Assembly: GCF_026967805.1 (NCBI RefSeq)
Contig: NZ_JAPVBG010000002.1
Location: forward strand, 1,066,238 to 1,130,237
From: Blastococcus sp. VKM Ac-2987
Lineage (GTDB): Bacteria; Actinomycetota; Actinomycetes; Mycobacteriales; Geodermatophilaceae
Direction of reading: 5' to 3'
Length of the DNA: 64,000 nucleotides
Shown here piece by piece: positions 1 through 10,365 of the stretch. The translations under genes were made by a program, and so were the position numbers. The notes beneath the pieces were generated by a model that worked only from the letters and a program-made list of their open reading frames with translations, did no database searches and had not been told where the DNA came from. The number at the start of each line of letters is the position of its first letter. Within the stretch, counting starts at the first letter, position 1.

Positions 1-1
1 C

Positions 2-265
2 GTCACCGCGCCGGCTACCGGCGCCCTGGCGGAGATCCACGACCGGATGCCCCTGGTGCTGCCGCGCGACCGCTGGGCCGGGTGGCTCGACCCGTCCCGC
101 GAGGACGTCGCGGAGCTGGCGGAGCCGACGCCGCCGGAGGTGGTCGCCGGCCTGGAGCTGCGGCCGGTCGGGGCCGCGGTGGGCAACGTGCGGAACAACG
201 GGCCCGAGCTGCTCGCCCGGGCGGACTCCGTCGCGTCCCCCGCCGACCAGCCCGCGCTCTTCTGA
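2..265 (+). CDS. SRAP-domain protein (YedK/HMCES type), C-terminal part
   Basis: The reading frame is open from base 2 to the TGA at 263-265, so only the last 87 residues are present. The segment TGALAEIHDRMPLVL is the conserved SRAP signature; the His of IHDRMP is an active-site residue in the family. SRAP proteins form a covalent thiazolidine cross-link with abasic sites in single-stranded DNA and shield them during replication. The catalytic Cys2 and the Asn/Glu motifs lie upstream of the window and cannot be checked. The stop is one base before the next gene's GTG, so the two are probably co-transcribed. Confidence 0.85.
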   Translation, partial: VTAPATGALAEIHDRMPLVLPRDRWAGWLDPSREDVAELAEPTPPEVVAGLELRPVGAAVGNVRNNGPELLARADSVASPADQPALF

Positions 266-266
266 C

Positions 267-1811
267 GTGGCACCGGACGAGGCACCGGCCGCGGCCGCAC
301 CCCCGACGGCGCCGCCTCCGAGCGGCGCGCTGCCGCCCTGGATCGCCGCGGGGCTGACCTTCCTGAGCTCCGGCGCGGTGCTGGTGCTGGAGATCGTCGG
401 GCTCCGGCTGATCGCGCCCTACGTCGGCGTCACCGTGCAGACCAGCACCGCGGTGATCGGCTTCGCGCTGGCCGCCATCGCCCTCGGCGCGTGGGTCGGC
501 GGCGCGACCGCCGACCGCACCGACCCCCGCCGGCTGCTGGCCCCGCTGCTCGTCGCCGGGGGCGCGCTGGTCGTCGCCGTGCTGCCGCTGGTCCGGTTCA
601 CCGGGGCGCTGCTCACCGGCGCCGACGCCGGCGGCGTGCTCCTGCTGGCGGCCGTGGCCGTCGTGGTGCCGGCGGCGCTGCTGTCAGCGGTGCCGCCGAT
701 GGTGGTGAAGCTCCAGCTGGCCAGCCTCGACGAGACCGGCGCGGTGGTCGGCCGGCTCTCCGGCATCGGCACGATCGGCGGCATCGCGGCGACCTTCGCC
801 ACCGGCTTCGTGCTGGTGGCGGTCCTGCCCAGCAGCGTCATCCTGGTCGCCACCGGCGCGGCCACAATCCTCACCGGCCTGGCGGTGGCCGTGCTGCTCC
901 GGCGGGGGCCCGGTGCCCGTCCGGTGCCCGCCGGGCTGCTCGTGCTGGCGGTCGTCGGCGGCGGGCTGGCCGCCGTCGCACCCACCCCGTGCGAGGAGGA
1001 GACGGCCTACCACTGCGCGCGCGTGGTGGCCGACCCCGAGCGGGAGTCCGGCCGGGTGCTGCTGCTCGACACCCTCCGGCACTCCTACGTCGACCTCGTC
1101 GACCCCACCCACCTGGAGTTCCAGTACGTGCGGGCGATCGCGGCGGTGACCGACGCGGTCTTCCCCGCCGCGGAGCCGATCTCCGCGCTGCACCTCGGAG
1201 GCGGTGGTCTCACCGTGCCGCGCTACCTCGCGGAGGTGCGCCCGGGTACGGAGAGCCGGGTGGTGGAGGTCGACCCCGGCGTGGTGAGCATGGACCGCGA
1301 GCAGCTGGGTCTGGAGACCTCCCCGGACCTGCGGGTGCGGGTGGCCGACGGCCGGGTCGGGCTGGCCGAGGAGCCGGTGGGGGAGCGCGACCTCGTCGTC
1401 GGCGACGCCTTCGGCGGGCTCTCGGTGCCGTGGCAGCTGACCACCCGCGAGGCGCTGGAGCTGGTCGACCGCGCGCTCGCCGACGACGGCGTGTACGCGG
1501 TGAACCTCATCGACCATCCGCCGCTGTCCTTCGTCCGCGCCGAGCTGGCCACGATGCGGTCGGTGTTCGGCCATGTGCTGCTGCTCGCCCGCGGCCCCGT
1601 GCTGGCGGGGGAGGACGGCGGGAACCTGGTCGCCGTCGCGTCGCAGCAGCCCCTCCCGGCCGCGGAGATCGCCACCGCGATGGCCGACCGGGACCTGGAG
1701 TGGCGGGTGGCCGAGGGCGACGAGCTGGACCGGTTCGTCGGCGGCGCCGGCGTGCTGACCGACGACTTCGCGCCGGTCGACCAGCTGCTGACCCCGTACG
1801 GGGCGCCCTGA
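267..1811 (+). CDS. Membrane-fused spermidine synthase-like protein
   Basis: 514 residues from a GTG one base after the SRAP stop. Residues about 25-215 hold seven or so hydrophobic segments. Residues about 250-510 are a spermidine synthase-type Rossmann domain, with a glycine-rich SAM-binding loop (LHLGGGGLTVPRYL, near residue 308) and the acidic VVEVDP end of strand 2 (near 331). Such fusions are common in Actinobacteria, but aminopropyl transfer is rarely shown, so the substrate is unknown. It meets ybaK tail to tail with 2 bp between them and no visible hairpin. Confidence 0.8.
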   Translation: MAPDEAPAAAAPPTAPPPSGALPPWIAAGLTFLSSGAVLVLEIVGLRLIAPYVGVTVQTSTAVIGFALAAIALGAWVGGATADRTDPRRLLAPLLVAGGALVVAVLPLVRFTGALLTGADAGGVLLLAAVAVVVPAALLSAVPPMVVKLQLASLDETGAVVGRLSGIGTIGGIAATFATGFVLVAVLPSSVILVATGAATILTGLAVAVLLRRGPGARPVPAGLLVLAVVGGGLAAVAPTPCEEETAYHCARVVADPERESGRVLLLDTLRHSYVDLVDPTHLEFQYVRAIAAVTDAVFPAAEPISALHLGGGGLTVPRYLAEVRPGTESRVVEVDPGVVSMDREQLGLETSPDLRVRVADGRVGLAEEPVGERDLVVGDAFGGLSVPWQLTTREALELVDRALADDGVYAVNLIDHPPLSFVRAELATMRSVFGHVLLLARGPVLAGEDGGNLVAVASQQPLPAAEIATAMADRDLEWRVAEGDELDRFVGGAGVLTDDFAPVDQLLTPYGAP

Positions 1812-1813
1812 GC

Positions 1814-2287
1814 TCAGCGGCCGATCGGTGCCGTCCGGGCCCGGGTGAGCCGCACCAGCTCACCGGGCGGCAGCTCCAGCTGCAGCCCGCGCTTCCCGGC
1901 GCTCACCAGCACGGTGGGGAACTCCAGGGCCGAGGCGTCGACCACGGTCGGCAGGGCCTTCCGCTGGCCGAGCGGGCTGATCCCGCCGAGGACGTAGCCG
2001 GTCGCGCGCTCGGCGTCGGCGGGCTCGGCCATCGCCGCCTTGCGGCCACCGGCGGCCGTGGCCAGCGCCTTGAGGTCGAGCGTCCCGCTGACCGGCACCA
2101 CCGCGACGGTGAGCCGGCCGTCCACGCGGGTCACCAGGGTCTTGAACACCTGGCCGGGATCGGCCCCCAGCGCGGCGACGGCGGCCTCCCCGTGCCCCTG
2201 GTCGGCGGCGTGCTCGGGCTCGTAGGGGTGCAGCGTGTGCGCCACCCCCGCCTGCTCCAGGACCCGCACCGCCGGGGTTGCCGCCAC
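1814..2287 (-). CDS. ybaK: Cys-tRNA(Pro)/Cys-tRNA(Cys) deacylase, YbaK/EbsC family
   Basis: 157 residues, the full family length. It has the YbaK editing-domain pattern: a FKTLV motif with its lysine (near residue 50), the central GG(R/K)KA segment, and the [12 protein letters not shown] motif near residue 97. The family hydrolyses cysteine mis-charged onto tRNA(Pro) in the cytoplasm. The GTG start is chosen because a TAGGCT -10 box ends 8 bases upstream, which fits a leaderless transcript. It is divergent from sigR. Confidence 0.9.
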
Positions 2288-2295
2288 GGCGCCGC

Positions 2296-2301
2296 AGCCT
2301 A
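2296..2301 (-). promoter_or_regulatory. -10 box of ybaK (leaderless)
   Basis: TAGGCT on the reverse strand matches TANNNT and ends 8 bases before the GTG at 2287. Confidence 0.5.
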
Positions 2302-2318
2302 GCGATCACCGCCCGACC

Positions 2319-2346
2319 GGGAATGGCCGCGGGCGCCGGTGCCGTT
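2319..2346 (+). promoter_or_regulatory. Candidate sigma-R (SigH-type) autoregulatory promoter
   Basis: GGGAAT at 2319-2324 and GTT at 2344-2346, separated by 19 bases, match the thiol-stress sigma-R consensus (GGAAT, 18-19 bases, GTT). It lies upstream of a gene of that very family. Transcription would begin near 2353-2356, at an in-frame GTG (2356), which would give a leaderless mRNA for an N-terminally extended sigma factor. Confidence 0.6.
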
Positions 2347-2431
2347 GCACCGGCCGTGAGCAGCACCGTCTCGACCGCCCGCACACGGGCCGCGCACCGA
2401 CGTCCCCCGGGCCGTCCGGACGCCGCGCGGC

Positions 2432-2437
2432 TAGGAT
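2432..2437 (+). promoter_or_regulatory. Candidate housekeeping -10 box of sigR
   Basis: TAGGAT ends 8 bases before an in-frame GTG at 2446 and 47 bases before the Shine-Dalgarno-preceded GTG at 2485. It could drive basal sigR expression independently of the upstream sigma-R-type promoter. Confidence 0.45.
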
Positions 2438-2484
2438 CGAACGACGTGGCGCCCCGCGTCCGGGGGCCGCAGAGAGGACGGTCG

Positions 2485-3177
2485 GTGCCTGAGGATCCCG
2501 CGGTCGACAACGCCGGTCAGCTGCCCGAGGCGGCCCCGGTGGAGGTGCCTGAGGCGCGCGAGGGCGGCAGCCGCACCGAGCTCGCCGAGACCCGCGCCGA
2601 GCGGGACGCCCGGTTCGAGCGCGACGCGCTCCCCTTCCTGGACCAGCTCTACCCGGCGGCCCTGCGGATGACCCGCAACCCCGCCGACGCCGAGGACCTG
2701 GTGCAGGAGACCTTCGTGAAGGCCTACTCCGCGTTCCACCAGTTCGCCGAGGGCACCAACCTCAAGGCCTGGCTGTACCGGATCCTGACCAACACCTACA
2801 TCAACAGCTACCGCAAGAAGCAGCGGCAGCCGCAGCAGTACCCCACCGAGCAGGTGCAGGACTGGCAGCTGTACGCGGCCGAGGAGCACAGCTCCTCGGG
2901 CCTGCGGTCGGCCGAGATCGAGGCGCTGGACCACCTGCCGGACTCCGACATCAAGGACGCCCTGCAGCAGCTGCCGGAGGACTTCCGGCTCGCGGTCTAC
3001 CTGGCCGACGTCGAGGGCTTCGCCTACAAGGAGATCGCCGAGATCATGGGCACGCCCATCGGCACGGTGATGTCCCGGCTGCACCGCGGACGCCGGGGGC
3101 TGCAGAAGCTGCTGGCCGACTACGCCCGCGAGCGCGGCTTCGTCCGCGCCGGAGCCGGTGAGGGGGCGACCCACTGA
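2485..3177 (+). CDS. sigR: ECF RNA polymerase sigma factor, SigR/SigH family
   Basis: 230 residues from the GTG at 2485, which has AGAGAGGA at 2471-2478 as ribosome binding site. Region 2 is seen in [20 protein letters not shown] and [15 protein letters not shown]. Region 4 ends in [20 protein letters not shown], which reads the -35 element. This is the thiol-oxidative stress sigma factor of Actinobacteria (Streptomyces SigR, Mycobacterium SigH), held inactive by the redox-sensing anti-sigma factor encoded next. The reading frame is open further upstream, with in-frame GTGs at 2446 and 2356 that sit at likely transcription starts. Longer isoforms are therefore possible. The stop overlaps the rsrA start (TGATG). 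Confidence 0.93.
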
Positions 3178-3518
3178 TGAGCGACGACGTCGACCCGGCC
3201 GGCGAGCCGATCGAGATCCACTCCTGCGACGACGTCCTGTCGCACGTCTTCGAGTTCCTCGACCACGAGACCGGGGACGAGCGGCGCGCGCTCATCGCCG
3301 AGCACCTCGAGGACTGCTCCTCCTGCTTGCGCGAGTTCGGCATCGAGCAGGAGTTCAAGGCGCTGGTGCGCCGGCGCTGCGGGGGCGACAAGCCGCCGTC
3401 GGGTCTCCGCGAGCGCATCAAGATGCAGCTGACCAGCGTCTCCTTCGAGGAGGACGGCACGCAGGTCAGCGTCGAGCGGCTGACGATCGAGCGGTCGGGG
3501 GAGCGCCCCACCGCGTAG
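3177..3518 (+). CDS. rsrA: Mycothiol-system anti-sigma factor RsrA/RshA
   Basis: 113 residues with the zinc anti-sigma signature H-x3-C-x2-C (HLEDCSSC: His43, Cys47, Cys50), plus the upstream Cys17 that completes zinc binding and redox disulfide exchange in RsrA, and a further Cys68. Reduced protein binds zinc and traps SigR; oxidation forms a disulfide, releases zinc and frees the sigma factor. Its ATG overlaps the sigR stop, so translation is coupled and the two proteins should be made in proportion. A strong hairpin follows the stop. Confidence 0.95.
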   Translation: MSDDVDPAGEPIEIHSCDDVLSHVFEFLDHETGDERRALIAEHLEDCSSCLREFGIEQEFKALVRRRCGGDKPPSGLRERIKMQLTSVSFEEDGTQVSVERLTIERSGERPTA

Positions 3519-3530
3519 GCCCGGAACGCC

Positions 3531-3563
3531 AGAGGCCCAGAACCCGACGGGTTCTGGGCCTCT
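3531..3563. terminator. Bidirectional hairpin between rsrA and bL37
   Basis: A perfect 15-bp inverted repeat (arms 3531-3545 and 3549-3563, 3-base loop) lies between two convergent genes. It is strong enough to end transcription from both sides, although there is no U-run. Confidence 0.75.
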
Positions 3564-3599
3564 CGTGCGTGACCCCACCGCGCGCGGAGGGGCCTGCCG

Positions 3600-3674
3600 T
3601 CACGCGTTGGGCCGCTTGCCGTGGTTGGCCTTGTTCCCCTTGCGGGAGCGACGCTTGCGTCCACGCTTGGACAT
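3600..3674 (-). CDS. Ribosomal protein bL37 (24 residues)
   Basis: A 24-codon gene beginning MSKRGRKRRSRKG and ending ANHGKRPNA, preceded by GGAGG-type sequence (CCTCCT on the forward strand at 3681-3686). It matches bL37, the tiny basic large-subunit protein first seen in mycobacterial ribosome structures and restricted to Actinobacteria. The conserved ending NHGKRPN is diagnostic. It is strongly basic, which fits an rRNA-buried peptide. It is too short for most gene callers. Confidence 0.93.
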   Translation of the reverse strand: MSKRGRKRRSRKGNKANHGKRPNA

Positions 3675-3847
3675 CGCTGCCCTCCTCTCACACTTCCCGG
3701 TGGGCCCCTCGGCCCGTGGATCCCGCGGGGCCCCGGCGCGGCCCACGTAGGGTGCACGACGCCGACGGACCCGCCAAGCTGACCTGACAAGCCTCTCACG
3801 GAGGCACCCGGCGGTGCGCCGACCCGGGCGACGCAGGAGGAGCAGCA

Positions 3848-4897
3848 GTGCCGCAGCTGGGGATCGAGACCGTGCTGGTCGCGGGACGTGGCCCGGCGGG
3901 CTGCGCCACGGTGAGCGCGTGCCAGCGGCTCGGTCTCAAGGCCGTCGCCGTGCACAGCGAGACCGAGCGCTCCGCGCGGCACGTCCGCCTGGCCGACGAC
4001 GCGGTCCTGCTGGGCCCCGCCCCGGCCGTGGAGTCCTACCTCGCGGTCGACCGGATCGTGGAGGCGGCCCGGCGCAGCGGGGCCGACACGGTGCTGCCCG
4101 TGCCGCCCGCGCTGGCCGGGAACGCGCGACTGGCGAGCGCGGTCATCGCCGCGGGACTGCGCTGGGCGGGCCCGGCCCCCGAGGTGCTGGAGCGGCTGGG
4201 CGGCGACGGCGTCGAGCCGGCCAGCGAGCGGGGCTTCCTGGCCTGGGTGACCGCCGAGGGGCTGCGCTTCACCACGCCGGTGGCCCGCGACCGCGCGGCC
4301 GGCATCGCCCGGGTGTCCTGGACGCCGGCCGCGCCCGGGGACCTGCCGCCGGCGGCGCACCGGCTGGCCGACATCGGCTGGCGCGGCCTGGTGACCGTGG
4401 GCATCTCCCCGGACGGCGAGCTGGCCGAGGTGGCGGCCGGGTTCTCCCTCGACATGGCGGTGCTGGAGCGGTCGCACGGCGTGGACGCCGTCGAGCTGGC
4501 CCTCCGCAGCGCCGTCGGGCCGCGGGCCTCCGGGACGGGTCCGGCGGCCCGTGCGGACGCCCGAGCCGCGGTGGTCGTCCAGCTGCGGGCCACGCTGCCC
4601 CCGGGCACCGCGGGCCGGATCAGCGGCCGGCTGCCCGGCTCCGGACGCCGGCCGGGGGCCGAGGCTGGCATCGACCTGGTGGCGGTGTCCGGGTACGACC
4701 CGGGCGACCGGCTCGACGGCTGGTACGACGCGCTGCTCGCCACGGTGAGCGCCGGGGGGCCCGATGTCGCGACGGCCGCCGACGCCGCCCGCCTGGCGCT
4801 GACCGGGCTGCCCGCGACCGGCGTGCCGCACGACGGCTCCGAGGTCTGCGCCGTGGTGGGCCGACTCGCCGAGGGGCGGTCGCTCCCGCAGACCTGA
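3848..4897 (+). CDS. Degenerate biotin carboxylase-like protein, probably non-catalytic
   Basis: 349 residues, GTG start, AGGAGG at 3835-3840. The N-terminus is plainly biotin carboxylase: VLVAGRGPAGCATV in place of the usual VLIANRGEIA, then HVRLADDAVLLGPAP and SYL. The C-terminus resembles the carboxylase C-domain (GYDPGDRLDGWYDALLA). The glycine-rich ATP-grasp loop is missing. The catalytic E-x-N-x-R-x-Q-V-E-H strand is replaced by AEVAAGFSLDMAVLERSHG. The protein is about 100 residues shorter than a working carboxylase (about 450). The next gene encodes a biotinyl carrier domain, which suggests a kept partnership, for example as a scaffold or regulator. That role is inference. Confidence 0.75.
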   Translation: MPQLGIETVLVAGRGPAGCATVSACQRLGLKAVAVHSETERSARHVRLADDAVLLGPAPAVESYLAVDRIVEAARRSGADTVLPVPPALAGNARLASAVIAAGLRWAGPAPEVLERLGGDGVEPASERGFLAWVTAEGLRFTTPVARDRAAGIARVSWTPAAPGDLPPAAHRLADIGWRGLVTVGISPDGELAEVAAGFSLDMAVLERSHGVDAVELALRSAVGPRASGTGPAARADARAAVVVQLRATLPPGTAGRISGRLPGSGRRPGAEAGIDLVAVSGYDPGDRLDGWYDALLATVSAGGPDVATAADAARLALTGLPATGVPHDGSEVCAVVGRLAEGRSLPQT

Positions 4898-4953
4898 AGT
4901 GCTGCTCGCGTGCTTGGATGAGGTCTCACGGACGGTGATCGCGGGAGGTGCCG

Positions 4954-5184
4954 GTGACGGTCGAGGAGATCCACGCGGAGATGGTCTCCAGCGTCTGGAA
5001 GGTGCTGGTCGCGCCGGGGGTGCAGGTGTCCGCCGGTGACACGCTGGTCATCCTCGAGTCGATGAAGATGGAGATCCCGGTGCTCACCGAGCGCGCGGGG
5101 ACGGTGCGGGAGCTGCACGTGGTGGAGGGCGAGGTCCTCCAGGAGGGCGACCTGATCGCCGTCGTCTCCGACGCCGTCTCCTGA
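4954..5184 (+). CDS. Biotinyl/lipoyl carrier protein, TB7.3-like
   Basis: 76 residues, a single biotinyl domain with the biotinylation site ESMKMEIPV; the Lys of MKM is the modified residue. It matches the free-standing carrier TB7.3 that sits between rshA and the pdtaS kinase in Mycobacterium. The start is taken at the GTG at 4954, five bases after GGGAGG (4943-4948); the in-frame GTG at 4948 overlaps that site. It could carry biotin for an acyl-CoA carboxylase encoded elsewhere or partner the degenerate carboxylase upstream. Confidence 0.9.
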   Translation: MTVEEIHAEMVSSVWKVLVAPGVQVSAGDTLVILESMKMEIPVLTERAGTVRELHVVEGEVLQEGDLIAVVSDAVS

Positions 5185-5220
5185 GCCCCTCCCGCCTCGG
5201 CCGGGGTGGACCGGCGCCGC

Positions 5221-5717
5221 TCAGACGTCGCGGGTGTAGACGAGCAGGTCGATCCCCGGCACGGGGCTCCAGTCCCGCTCGGGCAGCCGGGTGAAGCCCA
5301 GCCGCTCGTACAGCCGGTGCGCCGCCGTCATGCGGGTGCCGGTGGAGATGACCACGCGCCGCTTGCCCGCCCGCCGGGCGCGCTCCAGGCATGCCGACAC
5401 CAGCGCCGCGCCGACGCCGCGACCCTGCGCCGCCGGATCCACCACGAGCATGCGGAAGCCGGCCTCCTCGGCCGACTCCAGGACCTCGCCGAACCCGCCC
5501 CCGGCACGAAGGCGACGCTGCCGACGATCCCGCCGGTCCCGTCGCGGGCCACGAGCAGCCCGGCCAGGCGTGCCCGGCCGGCGACGTCGGCCAGCTCGGC
5601 GGCGTACCCGGCGGAGGCGAGGCCCCCACCCACGTAGACGTCGACGGTGAGCCGGGCGATGCGGTCGTGGTCGCCGGGGCCGGCGCGGTCGATGGTCAGG
5701 GCGGGGAGGGACACCAC
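5221..5717 (-). pseudogene. GNAT acetyltransferase broken by a one-base frameshift
   Basis: The N-terminal part (from the GTG at 5717: VVSLPALTIDRAG through IVGSVAFVPGAG) is in one frame. The C-terminal acetyl-CoA site (VDPAAQGRGVGAALV and the RLYERLGF ending) is in another. The switch falls in the C/G run around 5494-5503: one extra base there would restore FVPGGGFGEVLESAEEAGF between the halves. It is either a real inactivating deletion or a homopolymer sequencing error; the rest of both halves looks intact. It is divergent from pdtaS. Confidence 0.75.
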
Positions 5718-5723
5718 GGTCGA

Positions 5724-5729
5724 AGCGTA
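5724..5729 (-). promoter_or_regulatory. -10 box of the frameshifted acetyltransferase
   Basis: TACGCT on the reverse strand ends 6 bases before the GTG at 5717, a leaderless arrangement. Confidence 0.45.
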
Positions 5730-5759
5730 GGAGGGACCGGGTCCTAGGCTCGGCGCACC

Positions 5760-7241
5760 ATGAGCAGCCTCTCCGAGCGCCTCACCCGCGGGACGGCGTC
5801 CAGCCCCGCGCAGATCGACCACGCCCGGCGCCTGGTGGCCGACTGGCAGCTGCTGGCCGACCTCGCGTTCGCCGATCTGACGCTGTGGGTGCCGCTGCCC
5901 TCGGGCTCCTGGTGGTGCGTGGCGCAGGTGCGGCCGCTCACGGCACCGACCAGCCGGCCGGAGGACATGGTCGGCGCCGAGGTCGGCCCGGAGGAGGCCC
6001 GGCCGTTCGCCGTGGCCCTGCGCGACGGCCGGCCCGTCACCGACGGGGAGCCGGACTGGACGGGGCACACGCCACGCCGCCGCGAGGTGATCCCGGTCCG
6101 GCACGAGGGCGTGGGCATCGCCGTCCTGGCCAAGGACACCAATCTCGCCGTCACCCGGTCGCCGTCGACCCTGGAGCTGACCTACCTCGACATCGCCGCC
6201 GACCTCTGCCTCATGATCTCGGCCGGCACCTTCCCGCCGGGGACGCTCGCGGACGCGGAGATGAGCCCGCGGGTGGGTGACGGGCTGGCGCGCCTGGACG
6301 GGGCCGGGCGGGTCAGCTACGCCAGCCCCAACGCGCTGTCGGCCTACCGGCGGATCGGGGTCGCCGGCGACCTCGCGGGGGCGACGCTCGCGGACGTGAC
6401 CTGCCGGGTGGTGACCGACCGGGTGGCGGGGGAGGCGGCTGCGGCGGGCATCACGGCGGCGGTCGCGGGGCGCTATCCCGATCCGATGGACGTCGAGGCG
6501 GCCAGCGCGACCCTGCTGCTGCGCGCCCTGCCCCTGCAGGCGCCCGGCGCCGCCCCCGGTGCGCTCGTCCTGGTGCGCGACGTGACCGACGTCCGGCGGC
6601 GGGACCGGGCGCTGCTCACCAAGGACGCGACCATCCGGGAGATCCACCACCGGGTGAAGAACAACCTGCAGACAGTGGCCGCGCTGCTGCGCCTGCAGGC
6701 CCGCCGGATGACCGAACCGGCGGCCCGAGCGGCGCTCGAGGAGTCGGTGCGGCGGGTGGCCTCGATCGCCGTCGTCCACGAGACGCTGGCCGGCAGCCGG
6801 GAGGACGTCGTCGACGTGGACGACGTCCTGGACCAGGTGCTGCCGATGCTGGGCGACCTGACGTCGGTGGGGCCGGCGGCCCGGACCCGCCGGACCGGCT
6901 CCTTCGGCGAGCTGCCGGCGGTGGCCGCGACCCCGCTGGTCCTGGCGGTGACCGAGCTGCTGCACAACGCCGCGGAGCACGCGTTCCGCGAGGGTGAGCC
7001 CGGCGTCATCGAGCTGGTCGCCGAGCGGGACGGCGAGGACCTGGTCGTCCGGGTCCGGGACGACGGCCAGGGCCTGCCGCCGGGGTTCGACCCGGCGACG
7101 AGCGACGGGCTGGGCCTGCAGATCGTGCGGACCCTGGTGACCAGCGAGCTCGGCGGCAGCCTGACGATGGGGGTGCCGGAGGGGCGGGCCGGGACCGAGG
7201 TGGTGCTGCACCTGCCGGGGGACGGCTGGCCACGGCGCTGA
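5760..7241 (+). CDS. pdtaS: Sensor histidine kinase PdtaS
   Basis: 493 residues, soluble, no membrane segment. The order is an N-terminal GAF-like domain (about 30-160), a PAS-like domain (about 170-280), a HisKA_2 phosphoacceptor domain with EIHHRVKNNLQTVAALLRLQ (near residue 300) and an HATPase domain with ELLHNAAEHAF and RDDGQGLPPGF. This matches PdtaS, the kinase that phosphorylates the RNA-binding ANTAR regulator PdtaR. PdtaR is not in this window. TAGGCT at 5745-5750 lies 9 bases before the ATG, so the leader is very short. The location between the biotinyl carrier and whiB1 matches Mycobacterium. Confidence 0.93.
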   Translation: MSSLSERLTRGTASSPAQIDHARRLVADWQLLADLAFADLTLWVPLPSGSWWCVAQVRPLTAPTSRPEDMVGAEVGPEEARPFAVALRDGRPVTDGEPDWTGHTPRRREVIPVRHEGVGIAVLAKDTNLAVTRSPSTLELTYLDIAADLCLMISAGTFPPGTLADAEMSPRVGDGLARLDGAGRVSYASPNALSAYRRIGVAGDLAGATLADVTCRVVTDRVAGEAAAAGITAAVAGRYPDPMDVEAASATLLLRALPLQAPGAAPGALVLVRDVTDVRRRDRALLTKDATIREIHHRVKNNLQTVAALLRLQARRMTEPAARAALEESVRRVASIAVVHETLAGSREDVVDVDDVLDQVLPMLGDLTSVGPAARTRRTGSFGELPAVAATPLVLAVTELLHNAAEHAFREGEPGVIELVAERDGEDLVVRVRDDGQGLPPGFDPATSDGLGLQIVRTLVTSELGGSLTMGVPEGRAGTEVVLHLPGDGWPRR

Positions 7242-7260
7242 GCTCGGCCCCCGGACGCGC

Positions 7261-7294
7261 CGAGGCCGGTCCGGGAGGACCCGGACCGGCCTCG
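7261..7294. terminator. Hairpin between pdtaS and whiB1
   Basis: A perfect 15-bp stem (7261-7275 and 7280-7294) with a 4-base loop between two convergent genes. Confidence 0.75.
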
Positions 7295-7356
7295 TGGCGG
7301 TCGGTGCGTGTGCGGTGGGCCGCCGGGGGAGCCGGCAGCCGTCGTGGTGCTCCTGC

Positions 7357-7608
7357 TCAGGCGGTGTGGACCCGGGTGCGAGCCTGACGCCGCTTCAGCG
7401 CGCGCCGCTCGTCCTCGGAGAGCCCACCCCAGACGCCGGAGTCCTGGCCCGAGCGGAGGGCCCAGTCCAGGCACGACGAGACCACCGGGCAGCGCTGGCA
7501 CACGGCCTTGGCCTGCTCGATCTGGACCACGGCCGGACCTGTCGTCCCGATCGGGAAGAACAGCTCCGGATCCTCGTCCCGGCAGAGCGCGCGGTGGCGC
7601 CAGTCCAT
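7357..7608 (-). CDS. whiB1: Transcription factor WhiB1
   Basis: 83 residues from the ATG at 7608, chosen because it has GAGGAG nine bases upstream and because the protein then begins MDWRHRALC exactly as in known WhiB1. An in-frame start at 7671 would add 21 residues. Cys9, Cys37, Cys40 and Cys46 bind the [4Fe-4S] cluster; GVWGG and the basic tail ERRALKRRQAR contact sigma factor and DNA. WhiB1 is an NO-sensitive regulator that binds region 4 of the principal sigma factor. The roughly 280 bases upstream hold no gene and are less GC-rich than the surroundings, so they probably hold the promoter. Confidence 0.95.
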   Translation of the reverse strand: MDWRHRALCRDEDPELFFPIGTTGPAVVQIEQAKAVCQRCPVVSSCLDWALRSGQDSGVWGGLSEDERRALKRRQARTRVHTA

Positions 7609-7890
7609 GGCGTTGTACTCCTCGATGTCGTCTACGGTCGGGTGCGTCAGTCGCATAGCTCGGTCTGCCATCGCCGGGCCGACACCGGTTACCCAGCGCC
7701 ATGGCGGCAGCGACTGCCTGCGATTGTTACCGGCAGGTTGCGTTCCAGCAGCGATGTTTTCACGTGCCGGACGCCTGTCAAGGGAAACGCGGTCAGCGCT
7801 GACCCCCGCGTGAGCAACCTCACCACGGTCGTGCTAGGCCCGCCACCCGGAGGAGCGTCCGGTCCTGCCGGGAAGCCCCCGGGAGGTGCG

Positions 7891-8916
7891 TCAGGCGATG
7901 ACGCGCAGCGCGTCGGGGACGTTCCGGATCCGCACCCCCGTGGCGGTGCCCAGGTGGTCGCCGTCGACCTGCCAGCCCTGGGGGCGCACGGCCGTGATCG
8001 TGAGCTCCTCGAGGTCGTGCCACCGGTGCAGCCCGCGCCCGCGCAGGTCCGGCTCGGGCCGCATCGTCTGCCGCAGGGCGCGCAGCATGCGGGTGGTGCC
8101 CGTGCGGCCGAGGGCGAAGACGTCGAGCCCGGTCTCGAAGGACGCCTCGGGGGTGGGGTTCACCGGCCTGGCCCCCAGGTAGGTCCAGGGACTGACGTTG
8201 GACACCAGGCAGAGGAAGAGCTCCTCGAGGGGCGCCTCCCCGGGCACCCGCAGGGTCAGGGCCGGGCGCCGGCGGTCCCGGCCGAAGAGGAAGGCGGTGG
8301 TGGCCTCCCGGACGTAGAGCGCGCCGGTCGACCGGCGGCCCCGGGCGCGGCGTGCCTCCACCCGGGCGATGACCTCCGCGTCGAAGCCGAAGCCGGCGGC
8401 GAAGACGAACCAGCGGGGATCGGTCCACGCGGGCTCCTCGGCGGCGGCGTCGGCGCGGGCGACCGCCTCGGCCGCCACCGGCGCCACCCCGGTCACCGCC
8501 GCGGTGCTGGTCCCGGTGGCGCACGCGGTGCCCAGCGACACCGATCGGGTGCGGCCCGCCCGTAGCGAAGCCAGGATCTCCGCGGTCGCCTCCACCGGGT
8601 CGCGGGAGCGGCCCAGCGCCCGGGAGAACACGTTGGTCGAGCCACCCGGGACGACCGCCAGGGTGGGCACGCCCGCTCCGGGCCCGTCGGTCAGCAGGCC
8701 GTTGACCACCTCGTTCACCGTGCCGTCGCCCCCGAGGGCGACGACCACGTCGATCCCCTCGGCGACCGCCTGGGCGGCCAGCTCGAGCCCGTGGCCGCGG
8801 TGGCCGGTCTCGGCGACGTCGACCTTGAGCTCGCTGGCGAGGGCGCCCACCAGCACGTTCCGCATCTTCGCGGTGGTGGTGGTCGCCGCCGGGTTGACGA
8901 CCACGAGCGCGCGCAT
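7891..8916 (-). CDS. Diacylglycerol/sphingosine kinase family lipid kinase
   Basis: 341 residues with the DAGK catalytic signature: VVVNPAA near the N-terminus, ALGGDGTVNEVVNGL (near residue 60, nucleotide binding) and VVPGGSTNVFSRALG. The family phosphorylates lipid alcohols such as diacylglycerol at the membrane face. A TAGCCT -10 box ends 6 bases before the ATG. A protein of this type also lies next to whiB1 in Mycobacterium. The exact lipid substrate cannot be told from sequence. Confidence 0.88.
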   Translation of the reverse strand: MRALVVVNPAATTTTAKMRNVLVGALASELKVDVAETGHRGHGLELAAQAVAEGIDVVVALGGDGTVNEVVNGLLTDGPGAGVPTLAVVPGGSTNVFSRALGRSRDPVEATAEILASLRAGRTRSVSLGTACATGTSTAAVTGVAPVAAEAVARADAAAEEPAWTDPRWFVFAAGFGFDAEVIARVEARRARGRRSTGALYVREATTAFLFGRDRRRPALTLRVPGEAPLEELFLCLVSNVSPWTYLGARPVNPTPEASFETGLDVFALGRTGTTRMLRALRQTMRPEPDLRGRGLHRWHDLEELTITAVRPQGWQVDGDHLGTATGVRIRNVPDALRVIA

Positions 8917-8922
8917 CCCGCC

Positions 8923-8928
8923 AGGCTA
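8923..8928 (-). promoter_or_regulatory. -10 box of the lipid kinase gene (leaderless)
   Basis: TAGCCT on the reverse strand, 6 bases before the ATG at 8916. Confidence 0.5.
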
Positions 8929-9003
8929 TCCAGGGTGCGGGCCCGGACGGACGGAGCCGCCGGACGGCGCCGGTCGACGGCCCGGGTGCCGCGGTGCGCC
9001 GCG

Positions 9004-9009
9004 TAGTCT
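9004..9009 (+). promoter_or_regulatory. -10 box of the downstream membrane-protein gene (leaderless)
   Basis: TAGTCT ends 7 bases before the GTG at 9017, so transcription should begin at the start codon itself. Confidence 0.5.
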
Positions 9010-9016
9010 CGCCGTC

Positions 9017-9499
9017 GTGACCGAGGACCGCGGCACGCCCGCCCAGCCGCCCCGTCGCCTGGCCGACCGGCTGTTCGGCCCTACGGCGGCGCAGCCGGCC
9101 GCCCGCCCCGCGACGGCGCACCCCGAGGCGCCCCCGTCCCTGCGCCGGGCAGCGCTGGCGGTCGGGCTCGAGGCGTCGCTGTTGGGCCTCGGCGCGCTGG
9201 TGCTGCTGTTCCTCACGCTGACCGGCGAGCCCGACAGCGTGCCCCGGGCCCTGGCCGAGGTGGTGCTGGCCGCGCTGGCCGCCGGCGTCCTCGGGGCCGC
9301 CGCGCGCGGGCTGTGGCGGGTGGCCGGCTGGGCCCGCGGCCCGGTGATCGCGCTGCAGCTGTTCCTCGGGCTGACCGGCTTCACCCTCGCCTTCCCGGCC
9401 CAGCAGCCGCTGCTCGGCCTGCCGGTCCTGGCGCTGGTGGTCACCGTGCTCTACCTGCTGGCCACCCCCGAGTCCCGCCTGGCCTACCTCGACCGCTGA
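9017..9499 (+). CDS. Small integral membrane protein (Rv3217c-like position)
   Basis: 160 residues. After a Pro/Ala-rich cytoplasmic stretch (1-45) there are four hydrophobic helices (about 50-70, 80-100, 108-125, 128-148) and a short tail. No catalytic motif is visible. A membrane protein of similar size sits beside the lipid kinase and whiB1 in Mycobacterium, so the neighbourhood is conserved, but the function is unknown. The GTG start is supported by a -10 box 7 bases upstream. Confidence 0.8.
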   Translation: MTEDRGTPAQPPRRLADRLFGPTAAQPAARPATAHPEAPPSLRRAALAVGLEASLLGLGALVLLFLTLTGEPDSVPRALAEVVLAALAAGVLGAAARGLWRVAGWARGPVIALQLFLGLTGFTLAFPAQQPLLGLPVLALVVTVLYLLATPESRLAYLDR

Positions 9500-9523
9500 T
9501 CGGCCACGGCCTCTCCCGGGCAT

Positions 9524-9573
9524 AGGAAGCTATGCATACGGGAAAGGCGCCACATCCGTAGGCATAGCTTCCT
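9524..9573. repeat. Long AT-rich inverted repeat between convergent genes
   Basis: Arms 9524-9535 and 9562-9573 are perfect 12-bp complements (AGGAAGCTATGC / GCATAGCTTCCT). After one mismatch the stem continues 5 bp inward (9537-9541 with 9556-9560). The arms are far less GC-rich than anything around them. It sits between the ends of two convergent genes, so it may be a bidirectional terminator or a dispersed palindromic repeat. Confidence 0.7.
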
Positions 9574-9582
9574 TTGCCTCGG

Positions 9583-10365
9583 TCAGATGAGGTCGATGAC
9601 GTCGGCGATGGAGTCGCACACCCGGCTGGGCCGGAAGGGGAAGCGGGCGACGTCGGCGGCCGCCGTCGACCCGGACAGCACCAGCACGGTCTCCAGGCCG
9701 GCCTCGATGCCGGCGACGACGTCGGTGTCCATGCGGTCGCCGACCATCATCGTGGACTCCGAGTGCGCCTCGATCCGGTTCATGGCGCTGCGGAACATCA
9801 TCGGGTTGGGCTTGCCGACGAAGTAGGGCTTGGCGCCGGTGGCGGCGGTGATCATCGCGGCCACCGAGCCGGTGGCCGGCAGCGGGCCCTCGGGGGAGGG
9901 GCCGGTGACGTCCGGGTTGGTGGCGATGAAGCGGGCGCCGTCGCCCACCAGCCGGATCGCCCGCGTGATGGCCTCGAACGAGTAGGTGCGCGTCTCGCCC
10001 AGCACGACGTAGTCGGGATCGGTGTCGGTGAGGGTGTAGCCCGCCTCGTAGAGCGCCGTGGTCAGCCCGGCCTCGCCGATGACGTAGGCCGAGCCACCGG
10101 GCAGCTGGGTGGTGAGGAAGTCCGCCGTCGCCAGGGCGGAGGTCCAGATCGCCGCCTCGGGCACGAGCAGCCCGGTGCGGCTGAGCCGGGCCGCGAGGTC
10201 GCGCGGCGTGAAGATGGAGTTGTTGGTCAGGACGAGGAACCGGCGTCGCCGCTCGACCAGGCGGTCGAGGAAGTCCTTCGCCCCCGGGAGGGCCTGGCCC
10301 TCGTGGACGAGGACGCCGTCCATGTCGGTCAGCCAGCACTCGATCGGTCCGCGCTCGGTGGTCAC
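9583..10365 (-). CDS. HAD-superfamily IIA hydrolase, NagD-like
   Basis: 260 residues with all HAD motifs: WLTDMDGVLVHEG (nucleophile Asp), LTNNS, the GKPNP lysine segment and MVGDRMDTDVVAG (metal-binding acids). The IIA cap domain lies between the TNNS and GKPNP motifs. The family dephosphorylates small phosphorylated metabolites such as nucleotides and sugar phosphates. The substrate here is unknown. A TAGCGT -10 box ends 7 bases before the GTG start. Confidence 0.9.
   Translation of the reverse strand: MTTERGPIECWLTDMDGVLVHEGQALPGAKDFLDRLVERRRRFLVLTNNSIFTPRDLAARLSRTGLLVPEAAIWTSALATADFLTTQLPGGSAYVIGEAGLTTALYEAGYTLTDTDPDYVVLGETRTYSFEAITRAIRLVGDGARFIATNPDVTGPSPEGPLPATGSVAAMITAATGAKPYFVGKPNPMMFRSAMNRIEAHSESTMMVGDRMDTDVVAGIEAGLETVLVLSGSTAAADVARFPFRPSRVCDSIADVIDLI

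Follow-up and report, generated by a model that had tools for sequence, protein, structure and literature searches.

A switch between a long and a short form of sigma-R is already known from Streptomyces coelicolor. In this species, the upstream promoter p2 is sigma-R-dependent and the long form, sigma-R', carries 55 (PMC4921905) or 58 (PMC5472188) extra residues. The half-life of sigma-R' is about 10 minutes (PMC4921905), and the protein is degraded by Clp proteases which themselves belong to the regulon (PMC5472188). To judge by its title, the study of Kim et al. 2009 extended the isoform switch to actinomycetes. The comparable pair of mycobacteria and corynebacteria is SigH/RshA, SigH being the orthologue of SigR (PMC3489674). 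The promoter consensus of M. tuberculosis SigH, GGAAYR-N17-18-GTT, is the same (PMC4803200), and autoregulation of sigH has been described for only 7 species of Corynebacterium (PMC10012870). The portions of the literature on mycobacterial leaderless genes available to us describe no leaderless stress-sigma isoform, and those on sigR contained neither a leaderless sigma-R' nor an account of sigR in the Geodermatophilaceae; Kim et al. 2009 and 2012 could contain one.

We analysed the sigR locus of the soil actinobacterium Blastococcus sp. VKM Ac-2987 within a window of 64,000 nucleotides, i.e., the whole stretch of DNA under study. With S. coelicolor the locus shares an orthologous sigma and anti-sigma factor, a sigma-R-type upstream promoter, a basal promoter within the extension and an in-frame upstream start leading to an N-terminally extended form. 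The two systems differ in their starts. The long form of S. coelicolor begins with an ATG located between the two promoters and its short form with GTC (PMC5472188), whereas in Blastococcus the long form has a GTG nine bases past the GTT of the promoter and the short form a GTG (2485) behind GAGAGGA, an arrangement present in 35 of 38 family loci. The leadered upstream ATG of the Streptomyces form was not found in Blastococcus, and by profile comparison the extension peptides of the Blastococcus family and of Streptomyces are unrelated.

We consider it the best explanation, with a probability of roughly 80%, that sigR is an autoregulated gene with two promoters giving a leaderless long form and a short form, the extension of the former probably being a mark for Clp. 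Upon thiol oxidation, RsrA would release sigma-R, which would then transcribe its own operon from p2 (2319-2346). The mRNA would have its 5' end at GTG 2356 or one or two bases off, and its leaderless translation would yield sigma-R' with an N-terminal extension of 43 residues. In unstressed cells a shorter mRNA would be made from p1, whose TAGGAT (2432-2437) lies inside the extension, and would give rise to short sigma-R from GTG 2485, which a good Shine-Dalgarno sequence precedes. On the precedent of S. coelicolor, the most likely role of the extension is to target sigma-R' to Clp proteases; the amplified sigma factor would therefore be short-lived and the response self-ending. The 5' ends, the induction by stress, the instability and the Clp dependence of sigma-R' are what we infer for Blastococcus.

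If correct, a known stress switch has been carried into a new architecture, and the long isoform is under selection well outside Streptomyces. If the gene were annotated from its short start, 43 residues of sigma-R' would be lost. As far as our literature search reaches, the leaderless form and the nine-base rule that it appears to share with trxB and msrB would be new, as would a p1 locked in frame and starts that were exchanged repeatedly.

Anatomy of the sigR-rsrA locus

By profile scores, the locus encodes an ECF sigma factor of the SigR/SigH family and, adjacent to it, the cognate anti-sigma factor. The short form of sigma-R (230 aa; 2485..3177, plus strand) reached 359.5 bits with TIGR02947 (cut-off 251.55). 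Directly downstream lies rsrA (3177..3518, plus strand; TIGR03988, 89.5 bits, cut-off 62.5), whose start overlaps the sigR stop (TGATG) and whose translation carries HLEDCSSC. Upstream of sigR, the intergenic space is limited by a divergent gene for a ybaK/ebsC-type Cys-tRNA(Pro) deacylase (1814..2287, minus strand; TIGR00011, 173.2 bits). No Rfam families were detected within positions 1-10000 of the window. Immediately 3' of rsrA, a perfect 15-base inverted repeat with a 3-base loop (3531-3563) looks like a terminator of the operon. A very basic ORF of 24 residues on the minus strand (3600-3674; MSKRGRKRRSRKGNKANHGKRPNA) presumably resembles a very small ribosomal protein of actinobacteria, of the AURKAIP1/COX24 kind.

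The putative promoter sigRp2 (2319..2346, plus strand) consists of GGGAAT (-35, 2319-2324), a 19-base spacer and GTT (-10, 2344-2346). Nine bases past GTT is the GTG with which sigma-R' (273 aa; 2356..3177) would start; the nine bases preceding it, GCACCGGCC, contain no Shine-Dalgarno sequence by eye. A single open frame spans this GTG, a second one at 2446..2448 and that of the short form, 43 codons separating GTG 2356 from GTG 2485. The -10 sequence of sigRp1, TAGGAT (2432..2437), is in frame within the extension (CTA GGA TCG, L-G-S). Eight bases past it follows GTG 2446, a possible near-leaderless p1 start, and the Shine-Dalgarno sequence of the short form, AGAGAGGA, occupies positions 2471..2478. 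All coordinates that the preliminary description had given for the promoters and the three GTGs proved exact on re-reading of the sequence, and the frame is open through the three GTGs, as it had stated.

Comparison of the extensions across related genera disclosed the same sigR anatomy in 35 of 38 loci of the family to which Blastococcus belongs, 23 of the 38 belonging to the genus code of the window. Each of the 35 loci has a sigma-R-type promoter, nine bases, GTG, an in-frame extension with the p1 -10 region, a Shine-Dalgarno sequence and the short-form GTG. The p1/Shine-Dalgarno string served to select them, p2 being examined only afterwards; L034-L036 were dropped by this selection. In 33 of them the p2 motif is GGGAAY-N18/19-GTT, while in L032 and L033 (family genus g4) GCT replaces GTT, the nine-base gap and the GTG being retained. 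Thus, 36 of the 38 family loci contain the strict p2 motif, and in every one of these the start codon is located 8-9 bases past GTT (exactly nine in 35). Since the loci differ freely in the bases that separate GGGAAT from GTT, the gap between GTT and start codon looks selected.

The downstream elements were similarly constant. The p1 -10 string CTAG[GC]ATCG accompanies p2 in 35 of the 38 loci; the remaining three, L034-L036 from deeper family genera, combine p2 and a start codon 8-9 bases past GTT with the -10 sequence TATCCT. The extension ends with [AG]GAGAGGA-N6-GTG in 35/38 loci, and AGA GGA of this Shine-Dalgarno sequence is unchanged in all 26 loci that align without gaps. Extensions of the 35 loci span 43-51 codons, their lengths (129, 132, 141, 144 and 153 nt) each being divisible by three, and all of them are free of stops in the sigma-R' frame. 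Openness of the frame was rejected as evidence of coding, because stop-free stretches are too frequent at 74% GC: 68-70% of the 43-codon stretches in the window are free of stops, so that the open frame is not above chance. It is the conservation of the upstream anatomy, rather than its openness, that exceeds chance in these alignments. In the genome of the strain, nine GGGAAT-N18-20-GTT sites were counted vs none for the reversed pattern.

Translation of the extension and alternative readings

For a wider comparison, we used 194 distinct sigR loci (200 less six duplicates) under 92 genus labels, 86 of which have a promoter; each label was represented by its first locus having one. Between p2 and the sigma core, 73 TANN[ACT]T motifs were found in 72 of the 86 labels. 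All 73 place the T of TA at the second codon position and sit in an open frame behind an in-frame ATG or GTG, a count to be read with the caveat that related loci are not independent and that an open frame itself excludes TAA and TAG at position 1. The controls lacked this phase, with counts for codon positions 1, 2 and 3 of 6, 1 and 2 in the core and 8, 5 and 4 upstream of p2; bare TA within the extension gave 31, 130 and 49. The distance from the motif to the core ranges from 41 to 200 bases. Thus, a p1-like -10 region is locked in frame within an open, probably translated extension in most sampled labels, and this also fixes the peptide at that point (L-G-S, V-S-S and similar).

Codon substitutions in the 26 gap-free family loci were compared with 2000 shuffles of the alignment columns. 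Over 2359-2430, pN/pS was 0.40 in the sigma-R' frame, a value equally low in 1 of 2000 shuffles; the two remaining frames of the plus strand gave 1.3 and 1.9. The signal resides in a segment of 11 residues (2398..2430, plus strand) whose variation is nearly all synonymous (pN/pS 0.058; reached by 0 of 2000 shuffles), codons 2-14 of the extension (2359-2397) showing no protein-level selection (pN/pS 1.0). These data indicate that the N-terminal extension is translated and the long isoform kept by selection, as far as codon usage among relatives can tell. One frame of the minus strand is also low over 2398-2430 (pN/pS 0.039), which would suit an antisense gene as the cause of the conserved codons; 31 of 35 loci have no stop in that frame, and in the strain's own genome it is part of an open reading frame of 216 codons (1860-2510). 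This frame and that of sigma-R' have their wobble positions in common, hence a single constraint gives both low values and the codon test alone cannot separate the strands over 2398-2430. The minus-strand frame, however, has stops in four of 35 loci where the sigma-R' frame has none, and it overlaps ybaK, which is complete without it, in a different register. Promoter and start geometry exist on the plus strand only, and an antisense gene would leave the spacing of p2 and GTG unexplained; we regard such a gene as extremely improbable. Hardly more credible is a p2 transcript with a long 5' leader from which GTG 2485 alone is used, the upstream open frame being an accident of high GC content. 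About two thirds of 43-codon stretches in the window are indeed stop-free by chance, and the Shine-Dalgarno sequence with GTG 2485 is conserved. A mere leader does not account for extension lengths that vary by multiples of three only, for the pN/pS of 0.058, for a GTG fixed nine bases past p2 or for a p1 -10 region phase-locked in 72/86 genus labels.

The autoregulated gene with a leaderless long form thus remains the preferred reading, and the other two alternatives concern its products. The preliminary description had listed an in-frame GTG at 2446; its position was confirmed and it is conserved, but selection at the protein level on the added stretch was not seen. If the p1 mRNA were leaderless or nearly so and started at GTG 2446, with 2485 as a second start, there would be three isoforms, the 'short' one from GTG 2446 being longer by 13 residues. 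This is conceivable, though rather doubtful. The GTG is a fixed eight bases past TAGGAT and retained in 33 of 35 loci, but L028 and L083 have lost it (GCG there), and the three deeper family genera, with TATCCT as their -10, do not have it. The stretch 2446-2484 has a pN/pS of 1.44 and contains the Shine-Dalgarno sequence of the short form. The usual distance between -10 and +1 would place the p1 start near 2444, and in that case the mycobacterial preference for RTG at +1 over +2 to +5 (PMC4633059) speaks against GTG 2446. As to the extension itself, it might be made without being a degradation signal and instead tune binding to core RNA polymerase or RsrA. Strong selection on the 11-residue segment and the undetectable homology to the Streptomyces extension would agree with this; on the other hand, the sole function given for such an extension in the sources consulted, which concern S. 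coelicolor, is instability, shown by the short half-life (PMC4921905) and by degradation through Clp (PMC5472188), and we judge a tuning role unlikely.

The putative turnover of sigma-R' by Clp would fit a conserved promoter of sigma-R/E type in front of clpC. When 22 Blastococcus genomes were searched, GGAACA-N17-GTT was located 188-191 bases upstream of clpC in 21/21 loci (L216, L218-L238), their spacers varying freely; a full match was lacking in genome G018. Directly after GGAAY, mycobacterial SigH favours a purine and SigE a pyrimidine (PMC4803200). No strict sigma-R site was found at clpP1P2 of the strain's own genome. Homology of the extension to those of Streptomyces and Micromonospora was not detected by hhalign (probabilities of 1.1% and 0.2%, respectively), and the same degradation signal as in Streptomyces is therefore not to be assumed; the extension, if a degradation signal, would differ from the Streptomyces one. 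Which peptide feature would mark sigma-R' for turnover becomes testable by comparison of the unrelated extensions.

Distance between promoter and start codon in the putative regulon

In its interpretation of the nested promoters, the preliminary description had assumed two promoters, sigma-R in two lengths and leaderless initiation of the longer one. Comparative sequence data support these parts well, including a p2 transcript that would be leaderless for sigma-R' from GTG 2356; they show the promoter motif, the start-codon geometry, the translation of the extension and their conservation. For the negative feedback that it had proposed, the clpC promoter is the one supporting finding. In mycobacteria, ATG or GTG at +1 is sufficient for leaderless translation (PMC4633059), and the sigma-R' transcript, if it begins at GTG 2356, would resemble those leaderless genes.

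The geometry GTT-N9-RTG recurs in the genus at sigR, trxB and msrB. Blastococcus trxB has a GTG nine bases past GTT in 22/22 loci, and another in-frame GTG immediately 3' of GTT, upstream of the likely transcription start. Of the 22 msrB loci, 19 have a strict promoter, always with an ATG nine bases past GTT; the remaining three have none. In the strain's own genome, GGAAY-N17-19-GTT-N9-RTG occurs 12 times (reversed control, 0), where 4.8 are expected from 191 promoter-like sites; the binomial P for this excess is 0.0035, with relatedness ignored. All six sites of the GGAAT type open thiol/redox genes or sigR itself, namely those for a flavin oxidoreductase (PF00724), TrxB (TIGR01292), a DsbA-like protein (PF01323), thioredoxin (PF00085), SigR' and MsrB (TIGR00357). 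Of the six GGAAC-type sites, one opens SigE, one an M48 peptidase, three long frames and one a four-codon frame. The SigE-type ECF sigma gene (L285, C1:1022445-1022483, minus strand; PRK09647, 347 bits) has its GTG nine bases past a GGAAC-N19-GTT promoter, and this second stress sigma factor may also be autoregulated and leaderless.

Not all sites follow the nine-base form: at the GGGAAT sites L201, L203 and L204 of the same genome the first candidate starts lie elsewhere. Sigma-R-type promoter motifs were found on the thiol-redox genes trxB and msrB, on those for thioredoxin, the DsbA-like protein and the flavin oxidoreductase, and on cysD. In front of cysD (L207, C5:622754-622780, minus strand; NF003587, 450 bits), GGGAAT-N18-GTT is followed by a GTG seven bases on, so that sigR and sulfate assimilation may share a regulon.

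Unlike the sigma-R' start proposed here, the transcripts of M. tuberculosis SigH are mostly leadered. Out of 25 newly mapped starts, 18 lie 5-250 bp upstream of the annotated start codon, three within 5 bp and four inside the gene, and all seven starts known earlier are leadered (PMC4803200). Sigma-R promoters therefore do not generally yield leaderless mRNAs. The passages on SigH/sigR promoters in the sources consulted state no distance between GTT and the transcription start. By the rule of GTT, nine bases and RTG, start codons as well as 5' ends could be predicted for a group of sigma-R genes in these high-GC actinobacteria.

Distribution beyond the family

For all labels, the analysis relied on the most upstream GGAAY-N17-19-GTT within 480 bases; the genus labels mix coded and named genera, and repeats are possible (e.g., Nocardioides and f37/g68). 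Twelve family labels have a strict promoter with a start at 8 or 9 bases, and the 13th (g4) has the GCT -10. Outside the family, an in-frame ATG or GTG is located 8-10 bases past GTT in 30 of 74 genus labels, 19 of them at exactly 9, while in 23 other three-base windows the mean was 4.4 labels and the highest count 8; binomial figures for the start distance across labels ignore relatedness. All 47 Streptomyces-type loci, i.e., 43 records with a name (among them [Kitasatospora] papulosa) and four coded f31/g52 loci taken as Streptomyces, contain an in-frame ATG at 38-80 bases past GTT and none a start at 8-10. In ten loci of Micromonospora and relatives a GTG follows at 37-41 bases. On a quick tree of SigR from the 86 labels, in which one long-branch pair was flagged, the start type changes 21 times by parsimony and at least eight changes are forced by well-supported branches, 'leadered' here meaning merely that no in-frame start exists at 8-10 bases.

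Tentatively, and at present with more doubt than confidence, these data might be read for the thiol-stress regulon of this lineage as a whole: sigR', trxB, trx and msrB would be leaderless by the placement of the sigma-R start and translatable under impaired initiation, the design having been exchanged repeatedly. If true, their mRNAs could still be translated when thiol oxidation or ribosome-targeting drugs impair canonical initiation. The use of leaderless mRNAs by stress regulons to remain translatable under stress thereby becomes testable.

Six of the 92 labels lacked the promoter motif, namely f1/g4, f5/g16, f33/g54, f8/g19 and two MAG labels. The three f8/g19 loci (L161, L162 and L199) have no GGAAY-N17-19-GTT in front of the sigR orthologue; they have GGGAAATA, with GTT about 19 bases past GGAAA, perhaps a variant -35 region.
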